A program made the position numbers and the translations under genes. A stretch of 64,000 nucleotides of DNA from positions 142,058 to 206,057 of the forward strand of contig JAIUPD010000011.1 in assembly GCA_020161615.1 (NCBI GenBank), in the 5' to 3' direction. This stretch comes from Pseudomonadota bacterium (GTDB lineage: Bacteria; Pseudomonadota; Alphaproteobacteria; Rhodobacterales; Rhodobacteraceae). Below the pieces are notes generated by a model that did no database searches, was not told where the DNA came from, and was given only the letters and a program-made list of their open reading frames with translations. Positions 1,120 to 27,448 of this stretch are shown here, in pieces (position 1 is the first letter of the stretch; every line of letters starts with the position of its first letter).

Positions 1120-2573
1120 GCGTGACCACGGCTCGCCCGGTCCTCGCCGTCGCCTCGGAATGCGCGCCCCTGGTCAAGACCGGGGGCCTTGCCGATGTCG
1201 TGGGCGCGCTGCCCCAGGCGCTGGCGGCCGAAGGCTGGGCCATCCGCACCCTGATCCCTGGCTATCCCCGCGTCATGGCCGCCCTGAAAAAGCCCAAGGC
1301 GGTGATGGTCCTGCCCGACCTGCTGGGCGTGCCGGCGCGGGTGCTGGCGGCGCCGGTGGCGGGGCTGGACCTGCTGATCCTCGACGCGCCCGCGCTCTAT
1401 GACCGCGAGGGTTCGCCCTATCTCGACGCGGCAGGCCATGACTGGACCGACAACGACCTGCGTTTCGCCGCGCTGGGCAAGGCGGCAGCGCTGATCGCGG
1501 CCGGGGGGATCGCCGGCTGGCGGCCCGAACTTCTGCATCTGCACGATTGGCAGGCGGGTTTCGCCCCGGTCTATCAGCGGCTTCTGGGCGCGACCCAACC
1601 TTCGCTGATGACGATCCACAACATCGCCTTCCACGGGCTGACCGGCGCCCATCGCCTGACCGCGCTGAAACTGCCGGACGAGGCCTTCACCCTCGACGTG
1701 GCCGAGTTCTACGGCCATCTCTCGGCGCTGAAGGCGGGGTTGACCGGGGCGACGGCGATCAATACCGTCAGCCCGACCTATGCGCAGGAACTCTGCACAC
1801 CCGAATTCGGCATGGGGCTGGAGGGGCTGATCCGGGCCCGTGCCGCCGATATGTCGGGGATCCTGAACGGCATCGACACCCGGAGCTGGGACCCGACCAG
1901 CGACCCGCTCATTTCCCCCTTCGCGACCCCCGCCGCCAAGGCGGCCAATACCCGCGCGCTCAGGGCCGAATTCGGCCTCGCCCCCGCCGAGGGGCCGCTG
2001 GCCGTGGTCGTCTCGCGGCTGTCGGACCAGAAGGGGCTGGACCTGCTGCTGACTGCCCTGCCCGCGCTGGTCGAGAATGGCGGGCAACTGGCGATGCTTG
2101 GCTCGGGCGACCGGCGGCTGGAAAACGCCTGGCTCGCCGCCGCCGCCGCCCATCCCGGCAAGGTGGCTGTCCGCGTGGGCTATGACGAGGCGCTGTCGCA
2201 CCGGATCTATGCCGGCGCCGATGCGGTGCTGGTGCCCTCGCGGTTCGAGCCCTGCGGACTGACGCAGATGTACGGGCTGCGCTATGGCGCGGTGCCGGTG
2301 GTGGCACGGACCGGCGGGCTGGCCGACACGGTGATTCACGCCAATGCCGCGGCGCTGGCCGCGGGCTGCGCCACCGGCATCGTCCACGACCCCCACAGCG
2401 CCGAGGCCCTGGCCCAGGCCCTGCGCCAGCTCTGCGCGCTCTGGGCCGACCGCGCCGTCTTTCGCAAGATCCAGAAGAACGCCATGAAACACCCGGTCGG
2501 CTGGGAAGCCAGCGCGCCGCTTTATGCCGCGCTCTACGCCCGCCTCGCCGCCCTCCCGCAGGAGCCCGCATGA
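1116..2573 (+). CDS. glgA: Glycogen synthase, ADP-glucose dependent (GT5)
   Basis: Transfers glucose from ADP-glucose to the growing alpha-1,4-glucan. The protein is 485 residues, normal for bacterial GlgA. The diagnostic KTGGL motif sits at residues 21-25, and the C-terminal GT-B nucleotide-sugar site shows the [18 protein letters not shown] segment and a second TGGL. The chosen ATG at 1116 overlaps the glgC stop. An upstream in-frame start exists, but it would lie inside glgC and add a non-homologous leader. The gene ends in another ATGA overlap with glgX, which supports one polycistronic glycogen operon. Confidence 0.97.
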
Positions 2574-4651
2574 CCCTGACCATCGAGCGCGGCCGCCACG
2601 ACCGCATCGGCGCCACTTTCGACGGCGACGGCGTGAATTTCGCCCTCTTCTCGGAACATGCCACCGCCGTGGACCTGTGCCTCTTCTCGCCCGACGGCAT
2701 GCGCGAGACGCACCGCCTGCGTCTGCCCGAACGCACGGGTTATGTCTGGCACGGCCGCGTCTCGGGCCTGTTTCCCGGGCAGCAATACGGCTACCGCGTG
2801 CACGGCCCCTACGCGCCCGAGGAAGGGCACCGCTTCAACGCCAACAAGCTGCTGCTCGACCCCTATGCCAAGCGCCTGACCGGGCATCCGCGCTGGTCGG
2901 ATGCGGTCTTCGGCTACAACCCCGGCGCCAAGACGCAGGATCTGACCTTCTCGACCCGCGATTCTGCCCGCTTCATGCCGAAATGCGTGGTCGAGGATCC
3001 CAGCTTCTATTGGGGCAACGACCGCCCGCCCGCCAAGCCTGCCAACGAGACGATCATCTACGAGGCGCATGTGAAGGGGCTGACCCAGCTTTCCGGCGTG
3101 GTCAATGCGGGCAAGTTCCTGGGTGTGGCCTCGGACCGGATCATCGACCATCTGGTCGATCTGGGCGTGACCGCGATCGAACTGCTGCCGGTGCAGAGCT
3201 TCCTCAACGACCGCTGGCTGATCGAGAAGAAGCTGACGAATTACTGGGGCTATCAGACGCTGGGCTTCTTCGCCCCCGACCCGCGCTATCTGGTCAATGG
3301 CCAGATCAACGAATTCCAGCACATGGTCGCGCGCCTCCATGCCGCCGGGATCGAGGTGATCCTCGATGTGGTCTACAACCACACCTGCGAAGGCTCGGAA
3401 CTGGGCCCGACGCTCAGCTTCCGCGGCATCGACAACCGCAGCTATTACCGCCTCGCCCCCTATCCGCGGCATTACATCAACGACACCGGTTGCGGGAACA
3501 CGCTGAACCTCGATCATCCCATGGTGCTGAGGATGGTCATGGACAGCCTGCGCTATTGGGTCGAGGTGATGCATGTGGACGGCTTCCGCTTCGACCTCGC
3601 GTCCACGCTGGCCCGCGACGATGCGGGGTTCCAGCCGAACTCGGCCTTCTTCGCGGCGATCCGGCAGGACCCGGTGCTGAACCGCGTGAAGCTGATCGCC
3701 GAGCCCTGGGACATCGGCCCCGGCGGCTATCAGCTGGGCGCCTTCCCGCATCCGTTCCACGAATGGAACGACAAGTTTCGCGATGGCGTGCGCCGCTTCT
3801 GGCGCCGCGATGCGCGCCCGGCGCCGGAACTCGCCGCCCGGATCACCGGCTCCGCCATCCAGTTCGACCATTCCGGCCGCGGCGCAACCAGCTCGATCAA
3901 CTTCCTGACCGCGCATGACGGCTTCAACCTGATGGATCTGGTCAGCTACAACCAGAAGAACAACATCGCCAATGGCGAGGACAACCGCGACGGCCATTCC
4001 GAGAATTACTCGGACAACATGGGGCACGAGGGGCCGACCGACGATCCGCAGATCCTGCAGGCGAGGGCGCTGAGGCGGCGCAACCTGATGGCCACGCTGC
4101 TCCTCAGCCAGGGCACGCCGATGATCCTGGCCGGTGACGAGATGGGCCACAGCCAGCAGGGCAACAACAACGCCTATTGCCAGGACAGCCCGATCTCCTG
4201 GCTGGATTGGGGCAAGATGGATGCCGACATGCTGGCCTTCACCCGCCGCCTGATCCAGTTCCGCAAGAACCACCCGATCCTGCGCCAGAAGCTGTTCCTG
4301 CATTCGAAGGCGCGCTCCTCGGACGGCAAGGCGGATGTCCTCTGGTGGCACCCCGAGGGGCGGCGCATGACGCCCGCCGATTGGGAGGACCCGGCGCTCA
4401 GCCATGTCTGCGTCGAATTGCGCACCGCTTCGGGCACGCCCGCCTATGCCGATCTGGAAGATGCGATCTTCCTCGTCTTCAACGCGGGCGGGCAGCTTGA
4501 CGTGACCCTCACCCCCGCCCCCGATGGCAAGGCCTGGTCGCGGCGCATCAACACCTATGCCCCGACCGCCCCGCATGAGCGGATCCTCTCGGGCAAGCTG
4601 GTGGTGCCCGCGCATTCCGTCTCGGCCCTGGTTCTGGAAAACCTGCGATGA
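2570..4651 (+). CDS. glgX: Glycogen debranching enzyme (isoamylase-type, GH13)
   Basis: Hydrolyses alpha-1,6 branch points of glycogen, normally after phosphorylase trimming. At 693 residues it has full GlgX length. An N-terminal CBM48-like beta-domain (about residues 1-130) precedes the GH13 barrel. The catalytic set is visible: nucleophile Asp342 in VDGFRFDLA, acid/base Glu378 in IAEPWDIGPGGYQ and transition-state Asp450 in TAHDGFNL. It starts within the glgA stop codon and ends in an ATGA overlap with malQ. The order glgC-glgA-glgX implies that synthesis and breakdown are co-expressed. Confidence 0.96.
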   Translation: MTLTIERGRHDRIGATFDGDGVNFALFSEHATAVDLCLFSPDGMRETHRLRLPERTGYVWHGRVSGLFPGQQYGYRVHGPYAPEEGHRFNANKLLLDPYAKRLTGHPRWSDAVFGYNPGAKTQDLTFSTRDSARFMPKCVVEDPSFYWGNDRPPAKPANETIIYEAHVKGLTQLSGVVNAGKFLGVASDRIIDHLVDLGVTAIELLPVQSFLNDRWLIEKKLTNYWGYQTLGFFAPDPRYLVNGQINEFQHMVARLHAAGIEVILDVVYNHTCEGSELGPTLSFRGIDNRSYYRLAPYPRHYINDTGCGNTLNLDHPMVLRMVMDSLRYWVEVMHVDGFRFDLASTLARDDAGFQPNSAFFAAIRQDPVLNRVKLIAEPWDIGPGGYQLGAFPHPFHEWNDKFRDGVRRFWRRDARPAPELAARITGSAIQFDHSGRGATSSINFLTAHDGFNLMDLVSYNQKNNIANGEDNRDGHSENYSDNMGHEGPTDDPQILQARALRRRNLMATLLLSQGTPMILAGDEMGHSQQGNNNAYCQDSPISWLDWGKMDADMLAFTRRLIQFRKNHPILRQKLFLHSKARSSDGKADVLWWHPEGRRMTPADWEDPALSHVCVELRTASGTPAYADLEDAIFLVFNAGGQLDVTLTPAPDGKAWSRRINTYAPTAPHERILSGKLVVPAHSVSALVLENLR

Positions 4652-6480
4652 GCGACCTGGACGATGCCTGCCGCGCCCTTGGCCTGATCTGGGTCTACCG
4701 CGATGGCGCTGGCCGGATGCAGGAGGCGCCCGAGGAAAGCCGCCGCGCCGTGCTGGCGGCGCTGGGCCAGGGCAATGCCGAAGCCGCGCTGCCCGTGGCG
4801 CTGCAACGCTCGACCTCGCGGGCCATTCCGGCGGGCGCGCCGACCGATTGGGGGCCGGGCCCCTGGGTGATCCTGACCGAGGACGGTGGCGAGATCCGGG
4901 GCGAAGGTCCGCTGCCCGCCCTGCCGATGGGCTATCACCGCATCCTGCATCAGGGCTGGACCGTGCACCTGCTGGCCGAACCCCCGCGCCTGCCGATGCC
5001 GCCCCGCCGATGGGGCGTGACCCTGCCGCTCTTTGCGCTGTGGGAGGGGGCCGAGGCCGGGATGGGCACCTATCCGCAACTCGGCGCGCTGGCCGAAGGG
5101 CTGGCGGGCCACGGTGCCGCCTTCCTCGGCATCAATCCGATCCATGCGGGCTTTCCCGCCGATCCCGGCAATTACTCGCCCTACGCCCCCTCGCACCGCC
5201 GCCGCCTGAACACGATGCATGTGGAAACCGGGCTGAAACTGCCCGAAAGCGGCGCGCTGATCGATTACGCCCGCGCCATCCGCGCCCAGCGCGCGGCGCT
5301 GGAAGAGGCCTTTGCCGAGTTCCACGGCGATCCCGATTTCGAGGCCTGGCGCGGCGAGGGCGGCGCGGCGCTGGAGGAATTCGTCACCCATCAGGCGCTG
5401 AGCGAGGTGCACGGCGCCTATTGGGGCGGCTGGCCGCTGGCCTATCAGGACCCCCGCAGCGCCGAGGTTCAGACCTTCGCGCGCGAGCGCTGGCAGCGGC
5501 TGCGGTTCCACGCCTGGGCTCAATGGCAGGCCGAGATGCAGCTGCACGACGCACAGATCCGCGCCCGCTCGGCCGGGATGAACTTCGGGCTCTATCTGGA
5601 TATCGCCGTGGGCACCCATCCCCATGGGGCCGAGACCTGGGCCGAGCGCGGCTCCTTCGCACAGGGCGTCAGCCTCGGCGCACCGCCCGATCTGCTGGGT
5701 CCCTCCGGCCAGCGCTGGGGCCTGGCACCGCTGCGCCCCGATGTGCTGCGCGCCACCGGCTACGCGGCCTTTGCCCAGACACTCCGCGCCCAGCTCAAAT
5801 TCTGCGGGCTGCTCAGGATCGACCATATCCTCGGCCTCGAACGCAGTTTCTGGCTGCCCGACGGCTTGCCCGGCCTCTATGTCACCATGCCGCGTGAGGA
5901 GCTGCTGGCCGTCCTCAGGATCGAGGCGACGCGCGCCGGGGCCTCGGTCATCGGCGAGGATCTGGGCACCATCCCCGAGGGGCTCAGGGCCGCGCTCGAC
6001 GCCTCGGGCGTGATGGGCTGCCGGGTGGCGATGTTCGAACGGGATTGGGAGGGCACCCGCGATTTCCTGCCGCCCGAGGCTTATACGCCGACCGCGCTGG
6101 CCTCCTGGGCGACGCATGACCTGCCGACCTGGGCCGGCTGGCGCCAGGGCCGCGACATCGACTGGCGCGCGCAACTGGGCGAGGTCCCCGACGAACCCGC
6201 CGCGCGCGCGGCCCGCGCCGCCGAGGTCGCGGCCTTCGACGCGCTTTCGGGCGGGTCGGACCTTTCGGCCATGCACCGCCACCTCGCCCGCACCGCGAGC
6301 CATCTGGTCGCCGTCCAGGGCGAGGATCTGGCGGGCGCCGTCGAGCAGGCTAACTTGCCCGGTACGATCTACGAACACCCGAATTGGTGTCGCCGCCTGC
6401 CTTTGCCGCTGTCGGGCCTCATTTCCGCCCCGAGCCTCGACCAGACCGGCGCCATCATGGCCGAAGCCGGAAGGACCTGA
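4648..6480 (+). CDS. malQ: 4-alpha-glucanotransferase (amylomaltase, GH77)
   Basis: Disproportionates short malto-oligosaccharides such as those released by GlgX, so they can re-enter phosphorolysis. The length is 610 residues. GH77 catalytic signatures are present: Asp392 in LLRIDHILGLERSFW, Glu437 in GEDLGTIPEG and Asp491 in ATHDLPTWAGW. The N-terminal 110 residues are the less conserved MalQ N-domain. The gene starts inside the glgX stop (ATGA) and is followed three bases later by pgm. It is the fourth member of the glycogen operon. Confidence 0.93.
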   Translation: MSDLDDACRALGLIWVYRDGAGRMQEAPEESRRAVLAALGQGNAEAALPVALQRSTSRAIPAGAPTDWGPGPWVILTEDGGEIRGEGPLPALPMGYHRILHQGWTVHLLAEPPRLPMPPRRWGVTLPLFALWEGAEAGMGTYPQLGALAEGLAGHGAAFLGINPIHAGFPADPGNYSPYAPSHRRRLNTMHVETGLKLPESGALIDYARAIRAQRAALEEAFAEFHGDPDFEAWRGEGGAALEEFVTHQALSEVHGAYWGGWPLAYQDPRSAEVQTFARERWQRLRFHAWAQWQAEMQLHDAQIRARSAGMNFGLYLDIAVGTHPHGAETWAERGSFAQGVSLGAPPDLLGPSGQRWGLAPLRPDVLRATGYAAFAQTLRAQLKFCGLLRIDHILGLERSFWLPDGLPGLYVTMPREELLAVLRIEATRAGASVIGEDLGTIPEGLRAALDASGVMGCRVAMFERDWEGTRDFLPPEAYTPTALASWATHDLPTWAGWRQGRDIDWRAQLGEVPDEPAARAARAAEVAAFDALSGGSDLSAMHRHLARTASHLVAVQGEDLAGAVEQANLPGTIYEHPNWCRRLPLPLSGLISAPSLDQTGAIMAEAGRT

Positions 6481-8112
<1,632 letters not shown>

Positions 8113-8299: not shown

Positions 8300-8614
8300 T
8301 CAGACCGCCGGCACCCTGACCACGATCCCGTCGATCTGCGGCGCCATTTCCAGCTGGCAGGAGAGCCGCGAGCAACCCAGCCGCGGGGCGTCGGTCGCGT
8401 CGAGCATCGCCTCCTCGAAATCCGAGGGGGTGCCGGCCGCGTCCTGCCAGCCCTCCTCGACATAGACATGGCAGGTGGCGCAGCTCATCGTGCCGCCGCA
8501 TTCGCCGATGATCCCGGGCACATTGCCGGCAACCGCCGCTTCCATCAGCGACAGGCCGGGCTTGACCTCCAGCGCGATCTCGCGCCCGTCGGGCAGGATC
8601 CAGGTGGCTTTCAT
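8300..8614 (-). CDS. [2Fe-2S] ferredoxin, adrenodoxin type
   Basis: Small soluble electron carrier of 104 residues. Four cysteines have adrenodoxin/putidaredoxin spacing: C39-x5-C45-x2-C48-x37-C86, within CGGTMSCATCHVYVEEGW and GCSRLSCQL. It lies 10 bases downstream of the glutamine-synthetase-like gene and in the same operon as a cytochrome P450, so it is probably the P450 redox partner. No ferredoxin reductase is encoded nearby, so a reductase from elsewhere must feed it. The cluster and iron-sulfur type are clear; the partner assignment is inferred from position. Confidence 0.93.
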   Translation of the reverse strand: MKATWILPDGREIALEVKPGLSLMEAAVAGNVPGIIGECGGTMSCATCHVYVEEGWQDAAGTPSDFEEAMLDATDAPRLGCSRLSCQLEMAPQIDGIVVRVPAV

Positions 8615-8624
8615 CGCGTCCCCC

Positions 8625-9917
8625 TCAAACGAACCAGATGGCGAAATCGCGGGCGCCCTCGGGCGTCATGTCCCTGGTCTTGTCGACCTCGACCCGCTTC
8701 ATATGGATGTGGTGGGCGCAATACTCGGCCCCCATCGCCGCGACCAGCGCGCCATCCGCCTCCAGGTCGTCCAGCGCCCCAGTCAGCGTTTCGGCCACGC
8801 CGTATTCCGCGCTCTGGCCCGTGAAGCAATCGCCGGTCTCGGCCGGCGGCAGCGGATAGCCCTGTTCGTAGCCCAGAAGTGCCGCCTGCAGGACAGCGGC
8901 GACGGCCGCGTAGGGATTGGCCGAGGCATCGGCCATCCGGTGTTCCAGCCGCGCCTTCTTGCCGCCCTCGCCCGAGACGCGGGTGGTGACGCCGCGGTGA
9001 TCCTCGCCCCAGTTGCACCAGAAGCCGGACATGGTGGCGGGCTGCAGCCGGGCGTAGGAATTGACCGACGGCGCGATCAGCCCGGCCAGCCCCTTGTGGT
9101 GCTTCATCCAGCCCGCAACGCAGCCCCGCATCAGGTCGTTCATCGCCGCGATCCCGCCTGTCTCGCCAGTGGCGAAGGCGTTGTTGCCCGCCTTGTCGGC
9201 GAAGCTGAGGTTGATATGCATGCCCGAGCCGCCGCGGTCAAAGAAGGGTTTCGGCAGGAAGGTCAGGATGACCCCCTTGCGATAGGCGACCTCGCGGGCG
9301 AGTTGGCGGAACATCACCATCTCGTCCACCGCATCCAGCGCCTCCTCGAAGGCGAGGGTGAATTCGTATTGCGGCGTGTCGTATTCGGTGGTGACCAGTT
9401 CCAGCCGGAAGCCCGCGGCCTCGGCCGTTTCCCAGATGGCATCGGTGAAGCCCAGGGGATCGTTGAAAGGCCCGCCGCCATAGACATGCCCGCCCGGCAC
9501 GTCATAGGGCGTGAGGCTGCCATCCTCGGCCCGGGTGAAGGCGAAGGCCTCCAGTTCCAGCCCGACCTTGGGGGTCAGCCCGTGCTTCTTCCAGCCGGCG
9601 ATCGCCGCTTTCAGCGTGGCGCGGCCGGCGATCGGGATCAGCCGGTCGTGGCGGTCATAGAGGTCGCCCGTGACCATATGCACGCCCGGCTCCCAGCCCG
9701 GGCGGATGTCGGGGGCGTCCCAGCGCAATTCCATGTCGGGCAGCCCCTCCAGACAGGCGGTGCCGGGCGCATCGACGATCAGGTCCTTGTCGTAATGGAC
9801 GGCAAAACAGGGCTGGGCGAAACGGGTCGCCCCCGCGCCGATCTTTTCCTGCGGCAGGTACTTGCCCCGCAGGATCGAGAGGTGATCGCACCAGACGGGG
9901 CGAAGGCGGTCGCGCAT
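8625..9917 (-). CDS. Glutamine-synthetase-like ligase (probable gamma-glutamyl-amide synthetase)
   Basis: A 430-residue protein with the glutamine synthetase catalytic fold, ATP-dependent and expected to join glutamate to ammonia or an amine. Visible motifs are metal ligands E121 and E123 (GLELEAF), E178/E185 in TEYDTPQYEF, KPFFDRGGSGMH at 223-234 and EHRMADASANPY at 325-336. No GlnB-regulated adenylylation tyrosine loop is recognisable. The start has a GGGAG ribosome site. It is operonic with a P450 and a ferredoxin and divergent from a glutamine-amidotransferase-like gene. That context suggests gamma-glutamylation of an amine substrate, as in aniline (AtdA1) or isopropylamine (IpuC) catabolism, rather than nitrogen assimilation. 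The substrate is unknown. Confidence 0.85.
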   Translation of the reverse strand: MRDRLRPVWCDHLSILRGKYLPQEKIGAGATRFAQPCFAVHYDKDLIVDAPGTACLEGLPDMELRWDAPDIRPGWEPGVHMVTGDLYDRHDRLIPIAGRATLKAAIAGWKKHGLTPKVGLELEAFAFTRAEDGSLTPYDVPGGHVYGGGPFNDPLGFTDAIWETAEAAGFRLELVTTEYDTPQYEFTLAFEEALDAVDEMVMFRQLAREVAYRKGVILTFLPKPFFDRGGSGMHINLSFADKAGNNAFATGETGGIAAMNDLMRGCVAGWMKHHKGLAGLIAPSVNSYARLQPATMSGFWCNWGEDHRGVTTRVSGEGGKKARLEHRMADASANPYAAVAAVLQAALLGYEQGYPLPPAETGDCFTGQSAEYGVAETLTGALDDLEADGALVAAMGAEYCAHHIHMKRVEVDKTRDMTPEGARDFAIWFV

Positions 9918-9999
9918 ATCGTTAACTCCCTGTTTGTCTTATCGTCGCGGCTCCGGGGTTCGTTACGCCCCGGGCGCGCGTTTCGTGGATCTTTGTCTT

Positions 10000-11256
10000 T
10001 CAGGCGCGGGTCACATGGACCGGCAATTCCTTGATCCCGCCCACGAAATTCGAGCGCAGGAATTTCTGCGGTCCCGCCGGCTCGATCCCCCTGATCCGCC
10101 GGGCCAGTTCCTGAAACAGTACCCGCACCTCCAGCCGCGCCAGATGCATGCCCAGGCACAGATGCGGCCCCCCCTGCCCGAAGCTCAGATGCCGGTTCGG
10201 GGTCCGTGCCAGATTGACGCGGAACGGATCCTCGAAGACCGCCTCGTCCCGGTTGCCGCTGATGAACCAGTAAAGCACCTTGTCGCCCGCCCGGATCGTC
10301 TTGTCATGCATCTCATGGTCCCGCGTGGCGGTGCGGCGGAAATAGAGCGCGGGCGTGGCCCAGCGGATGATCTCGTCGGGCGCCGTGTCCCAGATCGCGC
10401 CCTCCTGCATCTGGCCCAGCAGTTCCGGCTGATGCGCCATCGCCTGGATGCCGGCGGCGATGGAATAGCGCGTGGTGTCGTTCCCGGCCGCGACCAGCAG
10501 GCAGAAGAAGTTGCGGAATTCGGTTTCCGAGATGGTGCTGCCATCGGGACCCGGTTGCAAGATCAGATGCAGCACGCCCTCGGTATCGCCGCGCGCCGCC
10601 TTGTCGGCCATCAATTGCTTTGCGTAGTCATAGAGTTCCGCACCGGCGGGCGAGTTGAAGGGCATGAGCCGATAGGCATCGGTCGTCATGCGGTCCAGCA
10701 CGTGATCGGTGAAATCGGGGTCGGTATTGGCGATGAGCGCATCGCCCTTTTCCACCAGCCAGGGCAGATCCGCATCCGGCGTGCCGATGATCCGGCCCAG
10801 CATGCGCATCGGCAATTGCCGGGCGATGGCCTTGGTGGCGTCGAACGTGCCCTGCTCCAGCGCCTCGTCCAGGATCTCGTCGCAGAGGTCGCGGATCTGG
10901 CCCTCGAACCCGGCGACAACCGGCTTGGAAAAGGCCTTGGCGACCTTGACCCGGGTCATCGAATGCTCGGGCGGGTCGGTTTCCTGAAAGGTACGCCGGG
11001 CCAGATATTCCTCGTAGCTCTGATCCTCCATGCGGATCCCCCGGGCCGAGGACATCAGATCCGCCTGCCGGTTCAGCGCCAGGATATCCTCGTTGCGGGT
11101 GACCGACCAGAAGCCCTGCCCGCCGTCCCACTCCGTCCAGGACAGAGGATCCTCGCGCCGGAGGCGGGCAAATGTGTTGTGCGGCGGGCCGTCCGTGAAG
11201 GTGTCGTGCGAGGTCAGATCGGCGTGTCCGTCGTCGGTCGGTGTCCAGATGGTCAT
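10000..11256 (-). CDS. Cytochrome P450 monooxygenase
   Basis: Soluble bacterial P450 of 418 residues. The I-helix oxygen-activation motif is AGNDTT (257-262), the ExxR pair is E295/R298 and the heme thiolate is C367 in FGQGGPHLCLG. That loop has one residue more than the usual FGxGxHxCxG, a variant also seen in some actinobacterial families. The ATG at 11256 was chosen because AAGGAGAG lies just upstream; a longer upstream in-frame reading would run into the divergent promoter and gene. It is the first gene of the P450/GS-like/ferredoxin operon. The substrate is unknown. Confidence 0.92.
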   Translation of the reverse strand: MTIWTPTDDGHADLTSHDTFTDGPPHNTFARLRREDPLSWTEWDGGQGFWSVTRNEDILALNRQADLMSSARGIRMEDQSYEEYLARRTFQETDPPEHSMTRVKVAKAFSKPVVAGFEGQIRDLCDEILDEALEQGTFDATKAIARQLPMRMLGRIIGTPDADLPWLVEKGDALIANTDPDFTDHVLDRMTTDAYRLMPFNSPAGAELYDYAKQLMADKAARGDTEGVLHLILQPGPDGSTISETEFRNFFCLLVAAGNDTTRYSIAAGIQAMAHQPELLGQMQEGAIWDTAPDEIIRWATPALYFRRTATRDHEMHDKTIRAGDKVLYWFISGNRDEAVFEDPFRVNLARTPNRHLSFGQGGPHLCLGMHLARLEVRVLFQELARRIRGIEPAGPQKFLRSNFVGGIKELPVHVTRA

Positions 11257-11326
11257 GCGACTCTCCTTGAATGCCCCGCCCAATATGTATATTATTGGAC
11301 TTGCAACGTATGCAAATGGAAAATTC
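11257..11326. promoter_or_regulatory. Divergent AT-rich control region with two inverted repeats
   Basis: This short gap separates the P450 operon from the divergent amidotransferase-like gene and is strikingly AT-rich against its surroundings. It contains AATAT-GT-ATATT at 11282-11293 and TTGCA-ACGTA-TGCAA at 11301-11315, both perfect inverted repeats. Either could be the operator for the nearby GntR/FCD regulator. The operator role is inferred from position and symmetry. Confidence 0.5.
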
Positions 11327-12037
11327 ATGCATATCGCCTTTCTGGACACCAACATCGACCGATCCGCGCTGGCCGCCCGCCATCCCGGCGAGGTGGACAA
11401 GTTCCGCACCCTGATGGGACCGGCGGCCCCCGGCTGGACCTATGCCGATTTTCGCGTGACCGAAGGGCATTTTCCCGCGGCGCTGGCAGGGTTCGACGGG
11501 GTGATGATCTCGGGCAGCCCGGCCTCGGTCAACGATCCGACGCCCTGGATGGCGCGGCTGGAGGCGGTGATCCGCGAGGCGGTCGCGCAGGGCGTGCCCG
11601 TCTTCGGCGCCTGCCTCGGCCATCAGGCGGTGGCCAAGGCGCTGGGCGGCCGGGTCGGGCGCAATCCACAGGGCTGGGTGCTGGGCCGTGTCGAAAGCCG
11701 GATCCACGACCCCGCCCCCTGGATGGCGGGCGCCGGGCCCCGGATCGCCCTGCATGCCGCGCATAACGAACAAGTGCTGACCCTGCCCCCGACCGCCCGG
11801 GTTCTGGGCGGGACGGACGCCACGCCCTATGGCCACCTGGCCTATGGCGCGCGGGTCTTCACCACCCAGTACCACCCGGAACTGACGCGGGATTTCATGC
11901 TGGATCTGGTGGGCGAAATGACCCCGGGCCTCGATGCCGCCATCGCCCGCACCGCGCGGGAATCGCTCGCCGCCCCCGTGGACGACGCCCGGATGGCGCG
12001 TTGGATCGCCGCTTTCTTCCACCAGGCGCGGGGCTGA
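11327..12037 (+). CDS. Class I glutamine amidotransferase-like hydrolase
   Basis: A 236-residue stand-alone class I GATase domain with a complete triad: nucleophile C96 in FGACLGHQ, H183 and E185 in QYHPE. No synthetase domain is attached, so it probably acts as a hydrolase of gamma-glutamyl bonds, comparable in role to AtdA2 or PuuD. It is transcribed divergently from the P450/GS-like operon across a 70-base control region and converges on the GntR gene. The inferred job is removing the glutamyl group from an oxidised amine or its amide. The fold is certain; the reaction is not. Confidence 0.85.
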   Translation: MHIAFLDTNIDRSALAARHPGEVDKFRTLMGPAAPGWTYADFRVTEGHFPAALAGFDGVMISGSPASVNDPTPWMARLEAVIREAVAQGVPVFGACLGHQAVAKALGGRVGRNPQGWVLGRVESRIHDPAPWMAGAGPRIALHAAHNEQVLTLPPTARVLGGTDATPYGHLAYGARVFTTQYHPELTRDFMLDLVGEMTPGLDAAIARTARESLAAPVDDARMARWIAAFFHQARG

Positions 12038-12211
12038 GGCGGGCCAAGCGTCGACGTGAAGCACGGCCCGCGCGCGAAAGCGCAAGGGCCGATCCCGCCA
12101 CCTGTTGCCGAGAGCGCAAGGGGATGTCGCCTGGGGGGCCGCGCCGACACGGATCGCCGCGCCCGTCCGGCGGCGGACCGCCCCCTCACAACAGGAACGC
12201 GGGCAGCGCCC

Positions 12212-12862
12212 CTAGCCCAGCGCCGCCAGCAGATCCATGGCCGTGACCTGATCGAACTGCACATGCTGGCGCATTGCCGCCTCGGCGGCCTCGGAATCGC
12301 GCGCGACGATCAGCCCGGCAATCGCCCGGTGATCGCGGGCCGAGGCCTCGATCGATCCCGCATAGCGATAGCGCGCCCGGTAATAGGCCATCAATTTCCG
12401 CGCGTTGGTCTTGATCATGTCCAGCAGGAACGGATTGCCCGCGCTCTCCGCCACCGCGGCATGGAAGCGCAGGTTCAACTGGTAATAGGCATCGGGCTCG
12501 GCCTCGCCCCGGGTGGCGAAATGCGCCTCGCAGGCCGCCGTCGCCTCCTCCAGCGCCGCGGCCCCCGACGCCGAAAGCCGCCGCGCCGCCAGCCCCGCCG
12601 CCTGCCCCTCGAGCTTGGCATGAACCTCGAGGATCGCCAGGAATTCGGTCAGCGTCGGCTTGAACACGACCGCGCCCTTGCGCGGCAGGCGGCGCACCAG
12701 CCCGGTCGCCTCGATCTGCATCAAGGCCTCGCGCACCGGGGTGCGCGAGACGCCGAAATGCTGGACCAGCGCCGCTTCCTCGATCTCGTCGCCGGGGTTG
12801 AGGCGGCCTGTGTCGATCCAGTCATGCAGCGTCCGCAGGATGGTTTCCGTCTGGCTGGCCAT
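12212..12862 (-). CDS. GntR-family transcriptional regulator with FCD ligand domain
   Basis: About 216 residues. The N-terminal winged helix-turn-helix (residues 1-70) contains HFGVSRTPVREALMQIEATGLV, the classic GntR recognition pattern. The remainder is an all-helical FCD domain with its metal/acid ligand histidines (FHAAVAESAGNP and ARDHRAI). The start is taken at the ATG at 12862; an in-frame GTG three codons upstream is also possible. It converges on the amidotransferase gene and probably controls the P450/GS-like cluster. A GTATAC core about 30 bases upstream could be an autoregulatory site. Confidence 0.9.
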   Translation of the reverse strand: MASQTETILRTLHDWIDTGRLNPGDEIEEAALVQHFGVSRTPVREALMQIEATGLVRRLPRKGAVVFKPTLTEFLAILEVHAKLEGQAAGLAARRLSASGAAALEEATAACEAHFATRGEAEPDAYYQLNLRFHAAVAESAGNPFLLDMIKTNARKLMAYYRARYRYAGSIEASARDHRAIAGLIVARDSEAAEAAMRQHVQFDQVTAMDLLAALG

Positions 12863-12978
12863 GAAATGCACCCCGGGTTGAGGCTATCCGTATACACACC
12901 GCGGCGTCCTTTGTGCAATCCCGGACCCGCTCCTGCCCCCTTGCGCCGCCCCCCGCGCTTGGTTATTGCTGCGCCCAC

Positions 12979-13068
12979 GGACAGTTGGCCGAGTGGTCGA
13001 AGGCGCACGCCTGGAAAGTGTGTAGGCGGGGAACCGTCTCGAGGGTTCGAATCCCTCACTGTCCGCCA
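12979..13068 (+). tRNA. tRNA-Ser (anticodon GGA)
   Basis: A 90-base class II tRNA. The acceptor stem GGACAGT pairs with ACTGTCC, followed by discriminator G and an encoded CCA. The anticodon stem CACGC/GTGTG closes the loop CTGGAAA, giving anticodon GGA (codons UCC/UCU). A long variable arm and the GGTTCGAATCC T-loop are present, as expected for serine. The GC-poorer polysaccharide island begins immediately downstream. Confidence 0.97.
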
Positions 13069-13449: not shown

Positions 13450-14517
13450 TCAGAGTCCGACTTCTTCTTTTCCTGGTGGCTCTGCTGCAGCTTTGACCGT
13501 GCGTGCCATCACCAGTTGCCACGTATCGGCCCAATGCGTCGAAAAGGCATGCAGCGCCTCAGGACTATGAGCCGGGTGTCCACCGAAGACCTCATCGATA
13601 TGCAGGCACATCTGATACACCTTCCGCGACTTCTGTCGTGCCCATTGCGTGGGATCCGTCATCACCACGGGCTGAATGCCGCGCGCGTAGCTCTCGATGA
13701 TCTTCGATGGCGAACTGTAGATCAGCCGCGCAGTCGAGATCGGCAATAGTACGGATTCACACTTTGAAAAGATCCGGTCAGTATCTTCGTTCCGCCAAGG
13801 GAACACGACCTCGAGGTCCGGCAAATCCGGGTCGGGCAGGTCTATATCCCGCGAGGTTGCAATCAAGACGCGAACACCACGCTCCTTTGCCTGTTCGAAG
13901 AAATGTGGAAAGCCATCCCGCATCCACTGGCTCTCGATATTGCCGATGATGCCAATGGTATGAGTGCTTGATCGCGAAAGCTTCGTAGGTTGCTCTCGGC
14001 CCTTGATCGGCAACGGCACATAATGGGTTCGGGCTCTGATAGCCCGGCTTGACGGAGCGTGGTCGGCGAAAGCTTCATCAATTACGAAGATATTGCCGAC
14101 GGACCGCTTGACGATCCACGACGCCAGATAGAACGGCAGCCACCAGAACCACCAGTTCCGGGTGACGTACTTCAAGCAACCGGGATAACTGTCCATGATC
14201 CACAAATCGCAAGGGATGCGATGGCGCGCAAAAGTCGCGATGGCGAACAACTGCGACAGGGACCCGTTTAAATTCAACAAGCCCCGGTCGAAGGTTCCCT
14301 TCGCCAGCAGTTTGCCAAGTGTGCGGGCGTCCTGCAGCGTCTGCCGCAGGCTCCGAGCGTTCTCGAACAGCACCTTAACTTCCGCGCCGCTGTCGCGATA
14401 GCGGGCGGCAAGCTCACCGCTGGGATGCGAGCGCTCTGGAGAAACACAACTGACAAACAGCAGCTTCCGCGGCTTTCCTGTGTCGTTGTCACCGGTTGAG
14501 GGGTTTCGATCAGTCAT
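13450..14517 (-). CDS. Probable GT-B-fold glycosyltransferase
   Basis: About 355 residues. The N-terminal half begins with a beta-strand and turn (RKLLFVSCVSPERSHPSGEL). A hydrophobic, tryptophan-rich stretch (WWFWWLPFYLASWIV) suggests membrane association. The C-terminal half has the donor-site pattern SPSKIIESYARGIQPVVM seen in GT-B enzymes. It overlaps the 3' end of manB and is the last gene of the GDP-fucose operon, so a role in assembling a fucose-containing exopolysaccharide is plausible. Exact start is uncertain (14517 or 14523). Donor and acceptor are unknown. Confidence 0.7.
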   Translation of the reverse strand: MTDRNPSTGDNDTGKPRKLLFVSCVSPERSHPSGELAARYRDSGAEVKVLFENARSLRQTLQDARTLGKLLAKGTFDRGLLNLNGSLSQLFAIATFARHRIPCDLWIMDSYPGCLKYVTRNWWFWWLPFYLASWIVKRSVGNIFVIDEAFADHAPSSRAIRARTHYVPLPIKGREQPTKLSRSSTHTIGIIGNIESQWMRDGFPHFFEQAKERGVRVLIATSRDIDLPDPDLPDLEVVFPWRNEDTDRIFSKCESVLLPISTARLIYSSPSKIIESYARGIQPVVMTDPTQWARQKSRKVYQMCLHIDEVFGGHPAHSPEALHAFSTHWADTWQLVMARTVKAAAEPPGKEEVGL

Positions 14518-15883
14518 CGGCATCCAGGAGTGTTCGCAGGTCCCCGATTTTTTCAGCGAGCAGAGTCGCATCGCCGCGCGTTTCGACGTTGAGCCGAAGC
14601 AACGGTTCGGTATTCGACCCACGCAGGTTGAAACGCCAGCGGTCGAACGACAGCGAAAGCCCATCGGTGTCGTCACGGGCGACGGATTTCGGGGCAAGTG
14701 CGGTCTCGACACGGGCGATTGATGCAGGCATGTCGGCGACACGGAAGTTGATCTCGCCCGATGACGGGAAGGCGGCGCGGCGAGCATCGACCAGGTCGGC
14801 CAGCTTGGCCCCGCGGCGGCTCATCAGATCGAGCACAAGAAGCCACGGAATCATTCCCGAATCGCAAGCCATGAAATCGCGGAAATAGTGGTGCGCCGAC
14901 ATTTCGCCGCCGTAGACTGCGCCGGTCTCTCGCATCACCTGCTTCACGAAGGCGTGGCCGGTGCGCGATTGCACGGGCTGGCCGCCAAGGCGGGTGACGA
15001 TTTCCTGCGTGTTCCAGACGATGCGCGGATCGTGCACGATTTTCGCACCGGGTTCGCGAGCCAGAAACGCCTCCGCGAGCAGGCCGACAACATATTCGCC
15101 GGGAATGAACCGACCAGCACCATCGAACAGGAAACACCGATCGAAATCACCATCCCACGCAATACCGATATCAGCACCATTGGAGCGTACGGCCGTTGCC
15201 GTAACGGGCTGATTTTCCTCCAGCAGCGGGTTCGGAATGCCGTTGGGGAAGCGTCCATCGGGTTCGTGATGCATCCGAACGACTTCGAGGGCCGCGCCGC
15301 GAGATCGTAACTCAGCCAGCAAGGCATCAAAGGTCGGGCCTGCCGCGCCATTTCCAGCGTTGACGAGCAATTTCAGCGGGCGCAAGGCGTCCACGTCGAT
15401 GAATGACAGCACGCAGTCCACATAAGCCGATCGCACCCCTTCGGAGGGCACAATCTTTCCAGGTTGCAGCGCGGCGTCAAACGTATTGGCTTCGGCGAGT
15501 TCCCTGACACGGGCTAGATCCGTTGCGGGATCCAGCGGAGCCGAACCGGCCTTCACCATCTTCATCCCGTTGTAGTCTATCGGGTTGTGCGAGGCAGTCA
15601 CGCAGATGCCGCCATCAGCCCCAAGATGGCTGGTTGCGAAATACATTTCTTCGGTGCCGGACAGGCCAAGGTCAAGCACTGCGACCCCTTGAGACGTGAG
15701 CCCTTCGGCCACTGCGGCGGCCAAGCTCTCCGACGAAGCTCGCACATCGCGCCCCAGAACAACCCGCTGGGCGCCAAGGGCCACGGCAAAGCCAGCGCCA
15801 ATTCGCCGCGCGATGCCCTCGTCAAGATCGACGCCAAGACGGCCGCGAATGTCATAGGCCTTGAAGCAGGTCAGCGATGTCAT
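14510..15883 (-). CDS. manB: Phosphomannomutase (phosphoglucomutase family)
   Basis: Converts mannose-6-phosphate to mannose-1-phosphate for GDP-mannose synthesis. The length is 457 residues, typical of ManB/CpsG. It shows the phosphoserine loop TASHNPIDYNGMKMVK, the metal loop AWDGDFDRCF, the sugar-binding GGEMSAHHYF and the phosphate-binding RGSNTEPLLRLNVE. It overlaps manC by ATGA upstream and the glycosyltransferase downstream. Sequence between the conserved loops is less GC-rich than the neighbouring housekeeping genes. Confidence 0.92.
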   Translation of the reverse strand: MTSLTCFKAYDIRGRLGVDLDEGIARRIGAGFAVALGAQRVVLGRDVRASSESLAAAVAEGLTSQGVAVLDLGLSGTEEMYFATSHLGADGGICVTASHNPIDYNGMKMVKAGSAPLDPATDLARVRELAEANTFDAALQPGKIVPSEGVRSAYVDCVLSFIDVDALRPLKLLVNAGNGAAGPTFDALLAELRSRGAALEVVRMHHEPDGRFPNGIPNPLLEENQPVTATAVRSNGADIGIAWDGDFDRCFLFDGAGRFIPGEYVVGLLAEAFLAREPGAKIVHDPRIVWNTQEIVTRLGGQPVQSRTGHAFVKQVMRETGAVYGGEMSAHHYFRDFMACDSGMIPWLLVLDLMSRRGAKLADLVDARRAAFPSSGEINFRVADMPASIARVETALAPKSVARDDTDGLSLSFDRWRFNLRGSNTEPLLRLNVETRGDATLLAEKIGDLRTLLDADD

Positions 15884-17313
15884 CCCTTCGCTCCCTGACC
15901 GCGTGCATAGACGTCCTCGTACCGGATGATGTCGTCTTCTCCGAGATAGGACCCCGTCTGCACTTCGATCAGCACCATGGGAACCTTCCCTGGATTCTTC
16001 ATCCGGTGCTTTTCACCGAGCGGAATGTAAACCGACTGGTTCTCGCTCACGAGCTTCACTTCGTCGCCGATTGTAATCTCGGCGGTACCGGAGACCACAA
16101 TCCAGTGTTCAGCCCGATGATGGTGACTTTGCAGGCTGAGGGCCGCCCCAGGGTGGACGTGAATGCGTTTCACCTGAAAACGGTCGCCGATGACCAGGCT
16201 TTCGAACCAACCCCAGGGACGGTGATCGACGGGAAAGCTCTCGGCCTGCCGCGCGCTTTTTGCCTTCAGCGCCGCCACCGCCTTCTTCACCTCCTGCGCT
16301 CGAGAGGCGTCGGCCACCAGCACGGCGTCAGGCATGGCCACGGCGATGATGTTTTCGAGGCCCAGCCCCACCAGTTCCACCCTATCGTCTTCAGAGCGCA
16401 GAAGGGTGTTCCGGCAGTCGATGGCGACGACATGCCCGGCGGTGGAAACGCCCGCCGCGTCCGGTCCACTTTCCCGCCAAACGGCGTCCCAGCCGCCCAG
16501 GTCGGACCAGCCCGCAGAGAAGGGCACCACGACAAGATTGTCCGCCCGTTCCATGACTGCGTAGTCGATCGAGACATTCTCGGCCGCGCTCCAAGCTTCC
16601 GGCTCAAGACGCAGGAAGCCGAGGTCGAGGGTAGCATCTGCCAGCGCCTGCTCCACAGGCTTCATGAGGTCAGGTGCATGGGCAGCGAACGCGGCCTTCA
16701 TCGTCGCCACGGAGAAAAGGAAAATGCCCGCATTCCACAAGTGCCGCCCCGACGCGATCATCTCCTCCGCCCGGGTGGTATCCGGCTTCTCGACGAAGCG
16801 GACAAGTTCGATTGCCCGCCCACCGTCGCCGGGGGCATCGGCAAGCTCAAGGTAGCCATAGCCCGTTTCTGCATGAGTAGGAGTAATCCCGAACGTCACG
16901 ATCTTACCGGCCTGCGCCGCCTGGACACCCGTCTCGACCGCCGCACGGAAGGCTGCGGCGTCGGGCACCACATGGTCCGACGGCGCCACCAGCATCAGGG
17001 CATCCGGATCCTGCCGTTCAAGCCACAATGCCGCCGCGAGGATTGCGGGCCCGGTGTTGCGCATCTCGGGTTCGATCAGGATCGCGCCCGGCCTGATGCC
17101 GACCTCGGCCAGTTGCTCGGTGACGATAAAGCGGAAATCGGCATTCGTCAGAACAAGCGGCGGCGCATAGCCTGGCCCGCTCAATCGCCGCGCCGAGGCT
17201 TTGAAGAGGGTTTCCTCCCCGACCAGCGGAACGAACTGCTTCGGGTATGACTTTCGTGACAAGGGCCACAACCGCGTGCCGGAGCCGCCGGAGAGCAGAA
17301 CAGGAGTGATCAT
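15880..17313 (-). CDS. manC: Mannose-1-phosphate guanylyltransferase / mannose-6-phosphate isomerase (bifunctional)
   Basis: Makes GDP-mannose from mannose-1-phosphate and GTP. The 477-residue length fits the two-domain type II enzyme. The N-terminal nucleotidyltransferase has LSGGSGTRLWPLSRKSYPKQ, and a C-terminal cupin-type isomerase domain ends with QSVYIPLGEKHRMKNPGK. It precedes manB with a 4-base overlap and follows fcl by about 60 bases. Together they supply GDP-mannose to Gmd and Fcl. Confidence 0.95.
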   Translation of the reverse strand: MITPVLLSGGSGTRLWPLSRKSYPKQFVPLVGEETLFKASARRLSGPGYAPPLVLTNADFRFIVTEQLAEVGIRPGAILIEPEMRNTGPAILAAALWLERQDPDALMLVAPSDHVVPDAAAFRAAVETGVQAAQAGKIVTFGITPTHAETGYGYLELADAPGDGGRAIELVRFVEKPDTTRAEEMIASGRHLWNAGIFLFSVATMKAAFAAHAPDLMKPVEQALADATLDLGFLRLEPEAWSAAENVSIDYAVMERADNLVVVPFSAGWSDLGGWDAVWRESGPDAAGVSTAGHVVAIDCRNTLLRSEDDRVELVGLGLENIIAVAMPDAVLVADASRAQEVKKAVAALKAKSARQAESFPVDHRPWGWFESLVIGDRFQVKRIHVHPGAALSLQSHHHRAEHWIVVSGTAEITIGDEVKLVSENQSVYIPLGEKHRMKNPGKVPMVLIEVQTGSYLGEDDIIRYEDVYARGQGAKG

Positions 17314-17371
17314 GTCAATTCCTTGGTAATCGAAATGTAAGTGTCAGGACACGTTTCTGCAGACAGGCCGC

Positions 17372-18331
17372 CTATTTCATCCGCAGGCCGACTTCGCCCT
17401 GATCGAGGAACCATGCATAGGTGCTCTCGATCCCCGTCTCCAGCGCGATCGTCGCCTCCCAGCCGAGACGGGACAGTCGACTGACATCCATCAGTTTCCT
17501 GGGGGTGCCATCTGGCTTGGTCGCGTCAAAGGTGAGACGCCCTTTGAAGCCGGTCACGCGGGCAACGGTTTCAGCAAGCTCGCGGATGGTCACATCGGTG
17601 CCGGTGCCCACATTGATATGGCTCAACATAGGCTGAACCTCGCGCGCAAGAATCTCGCGGTTGAGATCGAGCACGAAGAGACAAGCGTCAGCCATATCAT
17701 CCACATGCAGGAATTCCCGCATCGGCGTACCGGACCCCCAGACCACCACCTCGTCAATCCCGGCGCGCGCCGCTTCGTGAAACCGGCGGATGAGCGCGGG
17801 CAAGACGTGCGAGTTCTCCGGGTGGAAATTGTCACCCGGACCGTAAAGGTTGGTTGGCATCACAGAGCGGTAGTCGGTTCCATACTGCCGGTTGTAGCTC
17901 TCGCAAAGCTTGATGCCCGCAATCTTGGCGATGGCATAGGGCTCGTTGGTGCTTTCCAGCAACCCTGTCAGCAAAGCATCCTCCCGCATCGGCTGGGGCG
18001 CCAGACGCGGGTAAATGCAGGAAGAGCCCAGGAATAGAAGCTTCTGAACCCCAGCTTCGTAGGCTTGGTGGATAATGTTCGCTTCCATCATCAGGTTATC
18101 ATAGATGAACTCGGCCGGATAGGCGTTGTTGGCATGAATGCCACCCACCTTGGCCGCAGCGATGATCACCCGATCTGGCCTTTCGCTTTGCATGAAATCG
18201 CGCACTGCCGCCTGATCGATAAGGTCGAGCTCGGCATGCGTTCGGGTCAGGGTTTCCTGTCCTCGATCCTTGAGCTTCTGCAAAATGGCACCACCGACCA
18301 TTCCGCGGTGACCTGCAACATACGTCCTCAT
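17372..18331 (-). CDS. fcl: GDP-L-fucose synthase
   Basis: Epimerase-reductase of 319 residues converting GDP-4-keto-6-deoxymannose to GDP-L-fucose with NADPH. It shows the extended-SDR nucleotide loop GHRGMVG at the N-terminus, [14 protein letters not shown] carrying the catalytic serine and cysteine, and the YAIAK catalytic tyrosine/lysine. It lies 10 bases downstream of gmd. The pair commits GDP-mannose to fucose. Confidence 0.96.
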
Positions 18332-23060: not shown

Positions 23061-23089
23061 TAGGTAGGCAGAGGTTTTCCGCCTGTCAA
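23061..23089 (-). promoter_or_regulatory. Putative sigma70 promoter of groESL
   Basis: On the minus strand TTGACA (23089-23084) is separated by 17 bases from TACCTA (23066-23061), just upstream of CIRCE. The -35 box is consensus; the -10 box is weak. Confidence 0.65.
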
Positions 23090-23123
23090 CACTTGAAACC
23101 GAGGATTTTTTCGCAGTCGGGGC

Positions 23124-23390
23124 TCAGCCCCGAAGATGCTGCGACGCAGCGTGAAACGCCGCCCAGGCACCGGGGCACAGCGCCTCGATCTCGGCCTCCG
23201 ACAGCGCCCCGCCGCCCGGATCGAAGGCCCGGATTCCGGCCCCATCGGCCAGCAGCAGCGCCACCGGCTCTTTCCGGCCCCAGCCCAGCAGGCGGGATTT
23301 CAGCCCCTCGACGCCGACCGAAGACCGGCTCAGCGCCGCGACCATCCTGCCCTGCGCCTCCACCGGGCTTTCCATCACCACAGGGCTCAT
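23124..23390 (-). CDS. Small hypothetical protein, 88 residues
   Basis: Not recognised. The start overlaps the stop of the DUF2953 gene by four bases, and codon use matches its neighbours, which supports it as the third gene of the operon. The protein is soluble-looking, with no signal or membrane segment. It has a central strand-like stretch (EPVALLLADGAGIRAFDPGG) and an acidic helix (LSEAEIEALCPGAWAAFHAA). Confidence 0.6.
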   Translation of the reverse strand: MSPVVMESPVEAQGRMVAALSRSSVGVEGLKSRLLGWGRKEPVALLLADGAGIRAFDPGGGALSEAEIEALCPGAWAAFHAASQHLRG

Positions 23391-23899
23391 CGCAGCCTCC
23401 AGACGAAGCGCAGCAGCACCGGCAGCAGGCGCGCCGGGACGACCGAAAGCACGATCTCGCCCTCGCCTTCCAGCGTCTGCCTATCAAAGAGCGGCAGCAG
23501 ACGAAACCCGCGCCAGGGCAGCGCCTGCAGGATCCCGCTGGCCTTGCCCCAGAATTCGCCGGTCAGGGCCGGATCGCCCAGGCCAATCCGTACCTCGCCC
23601 CTGAGCCGGTCGATGCGCACGCATCCCAGCGCCTCGAGCCCCGCTCGGGCGCCCGCGCGCAGCATCTTGGCCGAGGGGCGGCGCTTCTTCGCGGCCGGTT
23701 TCGCGGCGTCGGGCTTTGGCCCCGTCGGCTTGCGCGCCCGCGCGCTGTCCAGCAGCGCCACGGGCACCAAGCCGCCCAGAAGGCCAAGCTCCACCCGATA
23801 CCGCGGCGGATCGCTGCCAGCCACGGCCTGCAACCGCAGCGGCGCCAGCAACAGCGCCGCCACCAGCAGGAACACCCCGGCCAGCGCCCAAAGCATCAT
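23387..23899 (-). CDS. DUF2953-family membrane-anchored protein
   Basis: A 170-residue protein with one N-terminal membrane helix (LWALAGVFLLVAALLLAPLR). A basic linker rich in Lys, Pro and Ala (about 55-80) and a beta-rich C-terminal region follow. The arrangement matches DUF2953, whose function is unknown. It overlaps the upstream gerW-like gene by ATGA, and the pair recurs in alphaproteobacteria to my knowledge. The linker suggests an anchored domain exposed on one side of the inner membrane. Confidence 0.65.
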   Translation of the reverse strand: MMLWALAGVFLLVAALLLAPLRLQAVAGSDPPRYRVELGLLGGLVPVALLDSARARKPTGPKPDAAKPAAKKRRPSAKMLRAGARAGLEALGCVRIDRLRGEVRIGLGDPALTGEFWGKASGILQALPWRGFRLLPLFDRQTLEGEGEIVLSVVPARLLPVLLRFVWRLR

Positions 23900-24246: not shown

Positions 24247-24347
24247 GTGCCTCTCCTGTGCAGACAGCCCATTCTGGCGCATCCCGTGAGGCGCCGCCAT
24301 GATCTGTGTCACTTGCCCGGAACGGCGCGCAGGGCTACGCCATCGGC

Positions 24348-24806: not shown

Positions 24807-24825
24807 GCCCCCCTTGGCAGCCGTG

Positions 24826-24905
24826 GGACTCCTGCCAAAAGGTTAATCGCGCAACCCAAAGCCTTGGAATTGCTGATCCAGACCCCCTGTCCCATGCGTG
24901 GGACA
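24826..24905 (-). repeat. Intergenic palindrome-plus-tail element, copy B
   Basis: Second copy of the element at 8123-8208, on the opposite strand. The palindrome TGTCCCACGCATGGGACA (minus strand) lies at 24905-24888, one central mismatch from perfect symmetry. A 41-base gap follows, then TTAACCTTTTGGCA at 24846-24833 and a trailing GTCCCACG. The palindrome starts two bases beyond the stop of the DUF2161 gene, between two converging genes as in copy A. Confidence 0.7.
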
Positions 24906-24907
24906 AC

Positions 24908-25582: not shown

Positions 25583-25636
25583 GACCTCAGATAACCCGGG
25601 CCGGAACCGCAGGGAAAGCCCCGGCGTTGTGCCTTC

Positions 25637-27351: not shown

Positions 27352-27357
27352 CGGGGC

Positions 27358-27447: not shown

Positions 27448-27448
27448 G

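Follow-up and report, generated by a model that had tools for sequence, protein, structure and literature searches.

Which compound is handled by a small gene cluster that joins a cytochrome P450 to a glutamine synthetase (GS)-like ligase? The cluster occupies positions 8300 to 12862 of a 64,000-nucleotide stretch, hereafter the window, from a Rhodobacteraceae genome of 4.87 Mb (GenBank assembly GCA_020161615.1, contig JAIUPD010000011.1, positions 142,058 to 206,057). The initial annotation of this DNA had suggested a gamma-glutamylation route coupled to P450 oxidation. Here, we find that the module is real, conserved, and apparently undescribed, and that it appears to be a variant of the glutamyl-tag strategy. 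We consider it somewhat probable that the module serves an aromatic arylethylamine (tyramine, phenethylamine, or a related compound) by P450 chemistry that depends on gamma-glutamylation. If this is correct, a conserved P450 clade would gain a function, aromatic biogenic amines would join the substrates of the glutamyl-tag strategy, bacteria would possess a way from tyramine to a catechol that needs no flavin hydroxylase, and a small cassette for hydroxylating amines selectively would be at hand.

Composition and conservation of the module

Pfam profile matches bore out the positions, strands, and families of the five genes named by the initial annotation, as well as their layout, i.e., an operon of P450, ligase, and ferredoxin with a divergent class I glutamine amidotransferase (GATase) and an adjacent GntR/FCD regulator. 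The module comprises the following features:

8300-8614, minus strand: 2Fe-2S ferredoxin of the adrenodoxin/putidaredoxin type (PF00111, E 8.8e-10), the presumed electron donor of the P450
8625-9917, minus strand: predicted GS-like gamma-glutamylamide ligase (PF00120, E 2.7e-70)
10000-11256, minus strand: cytochrome P450 of a CYP125/CYP124-like clade (PF00067), the proposed gamma-glutamyl-amide hydroxylase
11257-11326, no strand: putative divergent P450/GATase promoter region, with a variant of the element TTTACATATTTAT...TAATATACA
11327-12037, plus strand: stand-alone class I GATase (PF00117, E 3.2e-17, scanned as a longer open reading frame [ORF] from 11030), the proposed gamma-glutamyl hydrolase
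12212-12862, minus strand: GntR/FCD regulator (PF00392 and PF07729), the presumed regulator of the module

The three co-directional genes on the minus strand (P450, ligase, and ferredoxin) are separated by gaps of 82 and 10 bases, 70 bases lie between the P450 gene and the divergent GATase gene, and the GntR/FCD gene converges with the latter. Inspection of the translations by eye revealed the I-helix AGNDTT, EIIR, and heme-cysteine FGQGGPHLCLG motifs in the P450, the GACLGHQ and QYHPE motifs in the GATase, with its Cys/His/Glu triad kept, and the cysteine motif of the ferredoxin. The solved chains closest to the P450 were CYP125MRCA (presumably a reconstructed ancestor of CYP125), CYP124, CYP268, CYP126, and CYP125, and its best match was a Pararhodobacter aggregans record (98%); 10 aligned module orthologues shared 59 to 87% identity with it. 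For the GATase, the closest solved chain was gamma-glutamyl peptidase 1 (E 4.3e-17). The window genome holds a single match to Reductase_C, of the putidaredoxin reductase type, on another contig.

A scan with a P450 alignment over 84,980 species, each represented by one genome, confirmed at least 544 candidate stretches, and the best 80 loci were kept. These loci were picked by their P450, and only the partner genes are therefore informative. The ligase gene lay within 5 kb of the P450 gene in all 80 loci and was the next gene downstream on the same strand in 79 of them. A divergent GATase gene was also present in 79, the exception being L097, whose sequence begins 61 bases before the P450 gene. 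The regulator was found within 5 kb of the P450 gene in 68 loci and the ferredoxin in 61. Four of the 12 loci lacking the regulator have no more than 2.2 kb before the P450 gene, and 2 of the 19 lacking the ferredoxin have less than 1.4 kb after it; the remaining gaps reflect either true absence or copies too divergent for the search. The co-occurrence of these families beyond this genome, on which the initial annotation had made its proposal depend, is thus observed. When relatives were sampled, ligase orthologues with at least 58% identity were present in 11 of 59, and a P450 stood beside the ligase in 12 of 12 loci, the window genome included. A search by the ligase alone (E up to 1e-90) found it in 76 of 395 genomes of the family (351 genera), and among 385 genomes of the class, it occurred in eight besides the window genome, from four other families. 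A rearranged module was also observed in L063 (11271-13503), where the ferredoxin and GntR genes directly follow the P450 gene and the nearest ligase gene, 48% identical, lies on the opposite strand.

The ligase and known glutamylation systems

Against NCBIfam models, the window ligase fell far short of the cut-offs for GlnA, type III GS, and gamma-glutamylputrescine synthetase. Module ligases were aligned with the best GlnA-like protein of the genome, six GS paralogues, IpuC, and two ligases from aniline-type clusters. According to this alignment, they retain the core residues for binding metal, ATP, and glutamate (ExE, Glu, His, and Arg), while the positions aligned with Asp50 and Glu327 of the GlnA ammonium site are changed, the second of them to Met or Leu. 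Because these positions are changed while the core is kept, ammonia is disfavored as the substrate, and the module ligase is unlikely, as judged from the alignment, to be an ammonia glutamine synthetase. It is hardly credible that the enzyme is an ordinary ammonia-assimilating GS encoded beside the P450 by chance. Although its Pfam family is identical (PF00120), the window genome contains seven more genes of the GS family, of which the top scorer is GlnA-like, and nearly all loci examined have the ligase linked to the P450.

Plasmid pTC1 of Paenarthrobacter aurescens TC1 carries the gene order GATase-P450-ferredoxin-ferredoxin reductase-ipuC, and Pseudomonas KIE171 is reportedly a second host of this isopropylamine (Ipu) pathway. 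The initial annotation was aware of no reported system with precisely these genes, a statement that does not hold, since the TC1 Ipu system combines ligase, P450, ferredoxin, and amidotransferase; its suggestion of an ipu- or atd-like logic, in which an amine is glutamylated, oxidized, and released, is supported. In the published account, isopropylamine is ligated, the glutamyl-amide is hydroxylated by the P450, and release by an amidotransferase is postulated (PMC6776027). Both clusters thus encode a GS-like ligase, a P450 with its ferredoxin, and an amidotransferase together. However, the window P450 and ligase are 26% and 28% identical to their TC1 counterparts, the ferredoxin shows no similarity (E 0.39), and the GATase (E 7e-4) is of another type. 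In addition, no reductase is encoded in the window cluster, and the context of the module is aromatic whereas that of Ipu is alkyl. On these comparisons, the window module is not an orthologue of Ipu. The simplest reading is that the same logic was assembled independently in the two, which suggests two or more origins, each drawing its P450, ferredoxin, and hydrolase from different families.

The GS-GATase-dioxygenase cluster of Comamonas testosteroni pI2, which presumably serves aniline, likewise has a GS-like ligase (28% identical) and a class I amidotransferase (39% over 147 amino acids), and the window GATase is nearer to the latter than to the TC1 enzyme. The aniline systems atd, tdn, and dca differ in that they use a ring-hydroxylating dioxygenase where the window module has a P450, and the nitrogen of aniline sits on the ring; family scans found no dioxygenase among the five module genes. 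The pip/mor clusters of mycobacteria and Gulosibacter, compared by description only, also join a glutamine synthetase gene to a P450, which we take to be of the CYP151 type. The Gulosibacter glutamine synthetase genes are reported to be numbered next to PipA-type P450 genes, and PipA and MorA act on N-heterocycles (PMC9477822). A secondary-amine identity of the pip/mor kind was set aside, as the window P450 groups with CYP125 and CYP124 among solved structures, PipA being known by description only. A further likeness exists with the homoprotocatechuate (hpa) pathway, whose ring-cleavage genes co-occur with the module ligase as described below. This pathway is classically entered via the flavin hydroxylase HpaBC, and in the open-licence literature, we found neither an entry by P450 and ligase nor any description of the module or its proposed intermediates. 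Two papers had no bearing on the module in the portions available, which mention neither glutamine synthetase nor P450 for GapMind (PMC9007349) and neither tyramine nor 3-hydroxyphenylacetate for the P450 OhpA (PMC8449657).

Genomic context and the proposed pathway

Neighboring genes were called with a codon-based caller and clustered over 86 loci (the 80 plus L029, L030, L037, L042, L043, and L044); the numbers given are raw counts restricted to the 80. One representative of each neighbor cluster was identified. Those of fumarylacetoacetase, HpaD, HpaE, and HpaD_Fe exceeded their cut-offs, whereas that of HpaI fell slightly under (366.3 vs 368.8 bits) and that of HpaG well below. The paa, IclR, Tct, transaminase, and aldehyde dehydrogenase (ALDH) genes were named from the Ruegeria TM1040 annotation, and HmgA, HpaF, and HpaH by eye. 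A class III transaminase gene was found near the module in 47 of the 80 loci and an aromatic-L-amino-acid decarboxylase gene in 18; the best solved match of one decarboxylase member was DOPA decarboxylase (E 1.7e-115). Homogentisate-type genes (hmgA, fahA, or a PRK08132 FAD monooxygenase gene) were present in 19 loci, paa genes in 9, and hpa genes beside the module in 6, with the decarboxylase gene inside the hpa cluster in four of those. Any of the three ring pathways was represented in 33 loci, and every decarboxylase found sits in a locus with homogentisate-type or homoprotocatechuate genes. In the loci inspected, the FAD monooxygenase gene is followed by a DUF2783 gene (one copy scanned), and this PRK08132/DUF2783 pair is presumably a 3-hydroxyphenylacetate hydroxylase.

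The association recurs in other alphaproteobacterial lineages. In L158 to L161, genes for MarR, an HpaE-like ALDH, a LigB dioxygenase, an FAA hydrolase, the P450, the ligase, the ferredoxin, and a ferredoxin reductase all run in one direction. A Pyridoxal_deC decarboxylase gene stands just before the P450 gene in L158 to L160 (about 42% identical to the cluster-representative query) and was not found in the L161 stretch. Tct genes together with GATase, P450, and ligase precede hpaI-H-G-D-E-F, a transaminase gene, and an ALDH gene in L162, while L163 and L164 contain transaminase, ALDH, Tct, GATase, P450, and ligase genes, joined in L164 by hpaH-G-D-E. In L165, IclR, transaminase, decarboxylase, Tct, GATase, P450, and ligase genes follow one another in one direction. 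Novosphingobium EMRT-2 carries the P450-ligase pair near LigB dioxygenase, ALDH, ADC-like, and FAA hydrolase genes, with no GATase match.

A similar picture emerged at the level of whole genomes. With TIGR02295 at E up to 1e-70, hpaD was detected in 129 of the 395 family genomes, i.e., in 65 of the 76 ligase-positive genomes versus 64 of the 319 ligase-negative ones (odds ratio 23.5, Fisher p 9e-27, uncorrected for kinship and genome size). Because hpaD lies within 25 kb of the ligase gene in only 11 genomes, this association is mostly not one of linkage. In a set of 80 genomes, the transaminase was found in 38 of 40 ligase-positive genomes, 15 of 20 that were hpaD positive and ligase negative, and 4 of 20 with neither; the corresponding numbers for the decarboxylase were 37 of 40, 16 of 20, and 6 of 20. 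Of the 47 genomes having both genes, 22 have the decarboxylase gene no more than 5 kb from hpaD, and 15 of these are ligase positive. In the window genome, hpaF-E-LigB-D-G-H lies about 10 kb from the end of a transaminase-IclR-Tct-ALDH block on the same contig, the decarboxylase gene is on another contig, and no hpaB match was found at E 1e-30. This block (contig C1, about 23081-33296, L143) consists of genes for a transaminase, IclR, a TctCBA transporter, an ALDH, a second class III transaminase, and a UPF0261 protein; blocks of this type adjoin the P450 module in many other genomes.

Together, the neighboring genes and the genome-wide association make an aromatic arylethylamine the likeliest class for the amine that the initial annotation had left unnamed. 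Sequence and context show which protein families are present, that the module is conserved, that the ligase site has changed, and that decarboxylase, transaminase, and hpa genes are associated with the module across genomes; every reaction, the order of the steps, the exact substrate, and the position of hydroxylation are inferred. An aromatic amino acid would be converted to the arylethylamine by the decarboxylase, or the free amine would be taken directly. The ligase would then couple the amine to the glutamate gamma-carboxyl at the expense of ATP, hiding the charged amine and providing an amino-acid handle for the P450, which would hydroxylate the aryl part with electrons delivered via the neighboring ferredoxin and a ferredoxin reductase encoded elsewhere; in the boldest form, gamma-glutamyl-tyramide would become gamma-glutamyl-dopamine by 3-hydroxylation. 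Glutamate would be taken off by the amidotransferase-fold hydrolase, after which the class III transaminase and the ALDH would yield an arylacetate such as homoprotocatechuate, and the ring would be opened by the hpa enzymes, with homogentisate enzymes as neighbors in some lineages. Meta-hydroxylation would unify the conversion of tyramine to dopamine (hpa) with that of phenethylamine to 3-hydroxyphenethylamine, the acid of which could feed homogentisate via 3-hydroxyphenylacetate hydroxylase. A full and widespread alphaproteobacterial route, running from amino acid decarboxylation and gamma-glutamylation over a gamma-glutamyl-tyramide 3-hydroxylase P450 to homoprotocatechuate cleavage without HpaBC, is a possible but rather doubtful version of the arylethylamine pathway.

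Several observations weigh against this assignment. None of the three ring pathways was represented in 47 of the 80 loci, some of these 47 being cut by contig ends, and the loci with paa or homogentisate genes point to no single product. The module in the window genome adjoins glycogen-type genes and is unlinked to the proposed partners; as far as the ORF list shows, no ring-pathway genes occur near it among the window ORFs. A Tct transporter suggests entry of a carboxylate somewhere. No GATase was found in L158 to L161 and no transaminase in L158, L160, or L161, the class III transaminase of L159 is of another type and on the opposite strand, and in L158, LigB falls below the HpaD_Fe cut-off and the ALDH below the HpaE cut-off, making them relatives rather than certified members. 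Across the family, hpaD is missing from 11 of the 76 ligase-positive genomes, and genome size or deep ancestry may account for part of its association with the ligase. The transaminase and the decarboxylase track hpaD nearly as well as they track the ligase, since the differences between ligase-positive and hpaD-positive, ligase-negative genomes gave p values of 0.04 and 0.21, respectively. Finally, hpaB was absent from 54 of the 65 genomes with ligase and hpaD and from 49 of the 64 with hpaD and no ligase (p 0.39), and of the 6 genomes in which hpa genes adjoin the module, 2 have it. Being absent about as often with the ligase as without it, hpaB leaves no replacement signature for tyramine 3-hydroxylation. 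This displacement test rules against a module that replaces HpaB (4-hydroxyphenylacetate 3-hydroxylase) where hpaD is present, and it does not favor the tyramine 3-hydroxylase reading over others.

Other explanations divide the labor between the enzymes differently. The ligase and amidotransferase could buffer or detoxify an aromatic amine, which would be glutamylated, stored, and released, with the P450 working on an aromatic substrate in its free form. This would suit the divergent transcription of the GATase gene and the fact that none was found in L158 to L161, and in one report, the aniline amidotransferase reverses glutamylation by turning gamma-glutamylanilide back to aniline, preventing accumulation of the former (PMC4539516). 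The P450 and ligase genes are nonetheless consecutive on one strand in 79 of the 80 loci and occur together in the eight genomes of four other families, and their being kept together suggests consecutive steps on one substrate; we thus consider buffering unlikely. An aliphatic alkylamine pathway of the Ipu type appears less probable still. The enzyme classes do match the TC1 ipu cluster, and the nearest solved P450s, CYP125 and CYP124, were deposited as a steroid C26-monooxygenase and a methyl-branched lipid hydroxylase, but the low identities to the TC1 proteins, the differing ferredoxin and GATase types, and the recurrent presence of aromatic decarboxylase and ring-cleavage genes nearby argue otherwise. 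Slightly more improbable is hydroxylation by the P450 of the carbon next to the nitrogen, whereby the glutamyl-amide would break down into glutamine and an aryl-acetaldehyde and the amidotransferase would be a glutaminase. Such a reaction would account for L158, L160, and L161, which yielded no transaminase, yet it would make superfluous the transaminase that adjoins the module in 47 of the 80 loci and occurs in 38 of the 40 ligase-positive genomes.

Regulatory sequence and other features

The element TTTACATATTTAT...TAATATACA is common to the P450/GATase intergenic regions of many homologous loci, and the window carries a variant of it. The 8-mer TATGTAAA, on either strand, occurred in 54 of 78 intergenic regions, while the commonest 8-mer after one shuffle occurred in 4 of 78. 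This shared element fits a divergent promoter or operator. A search for a GntR operator found no repeat in 11250-11335. Upstream of gntR, no motif was enriched to the level of the divergent promoter element, and two short overlapping palindromes are present (12869-12880 and 12896-12907, 9-nucleotide arms, 89%).

Other features were noted around the module and elsewhere in the genome. Look-alikes of glycogen debranching enzyme, 4-alpha-glucanotransferase, and phosphoglucomutase genes (by eye) adjoin the module at 2570-8112, and their homologues lie near the module in four genomes of the same genus. On contig C3 (about 423280-429359; L002, L005), two GS-like genes stand in a row with a class I GATase gene between them, whose product shares 37% identity with the window GATase; they form a second gamma-glutamylation cluster, perhaps for polyamines. 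A tRNA-Ser gene (12979-13068) was called by both ARAGORN and Rfam, whereas a tRNA-Cys of 99 bases (23771-23869, minus strand) was called by ARAGORN only, below the Rfam gathering score, and is possibly a false call. Phosphomannomutase, mannose-1-phosphate guanylyltransferase, and GDP-fucose synthase look-alikes, also recognized by eye, mark a polysaccharide region at 14510-18331 on the minus strand.

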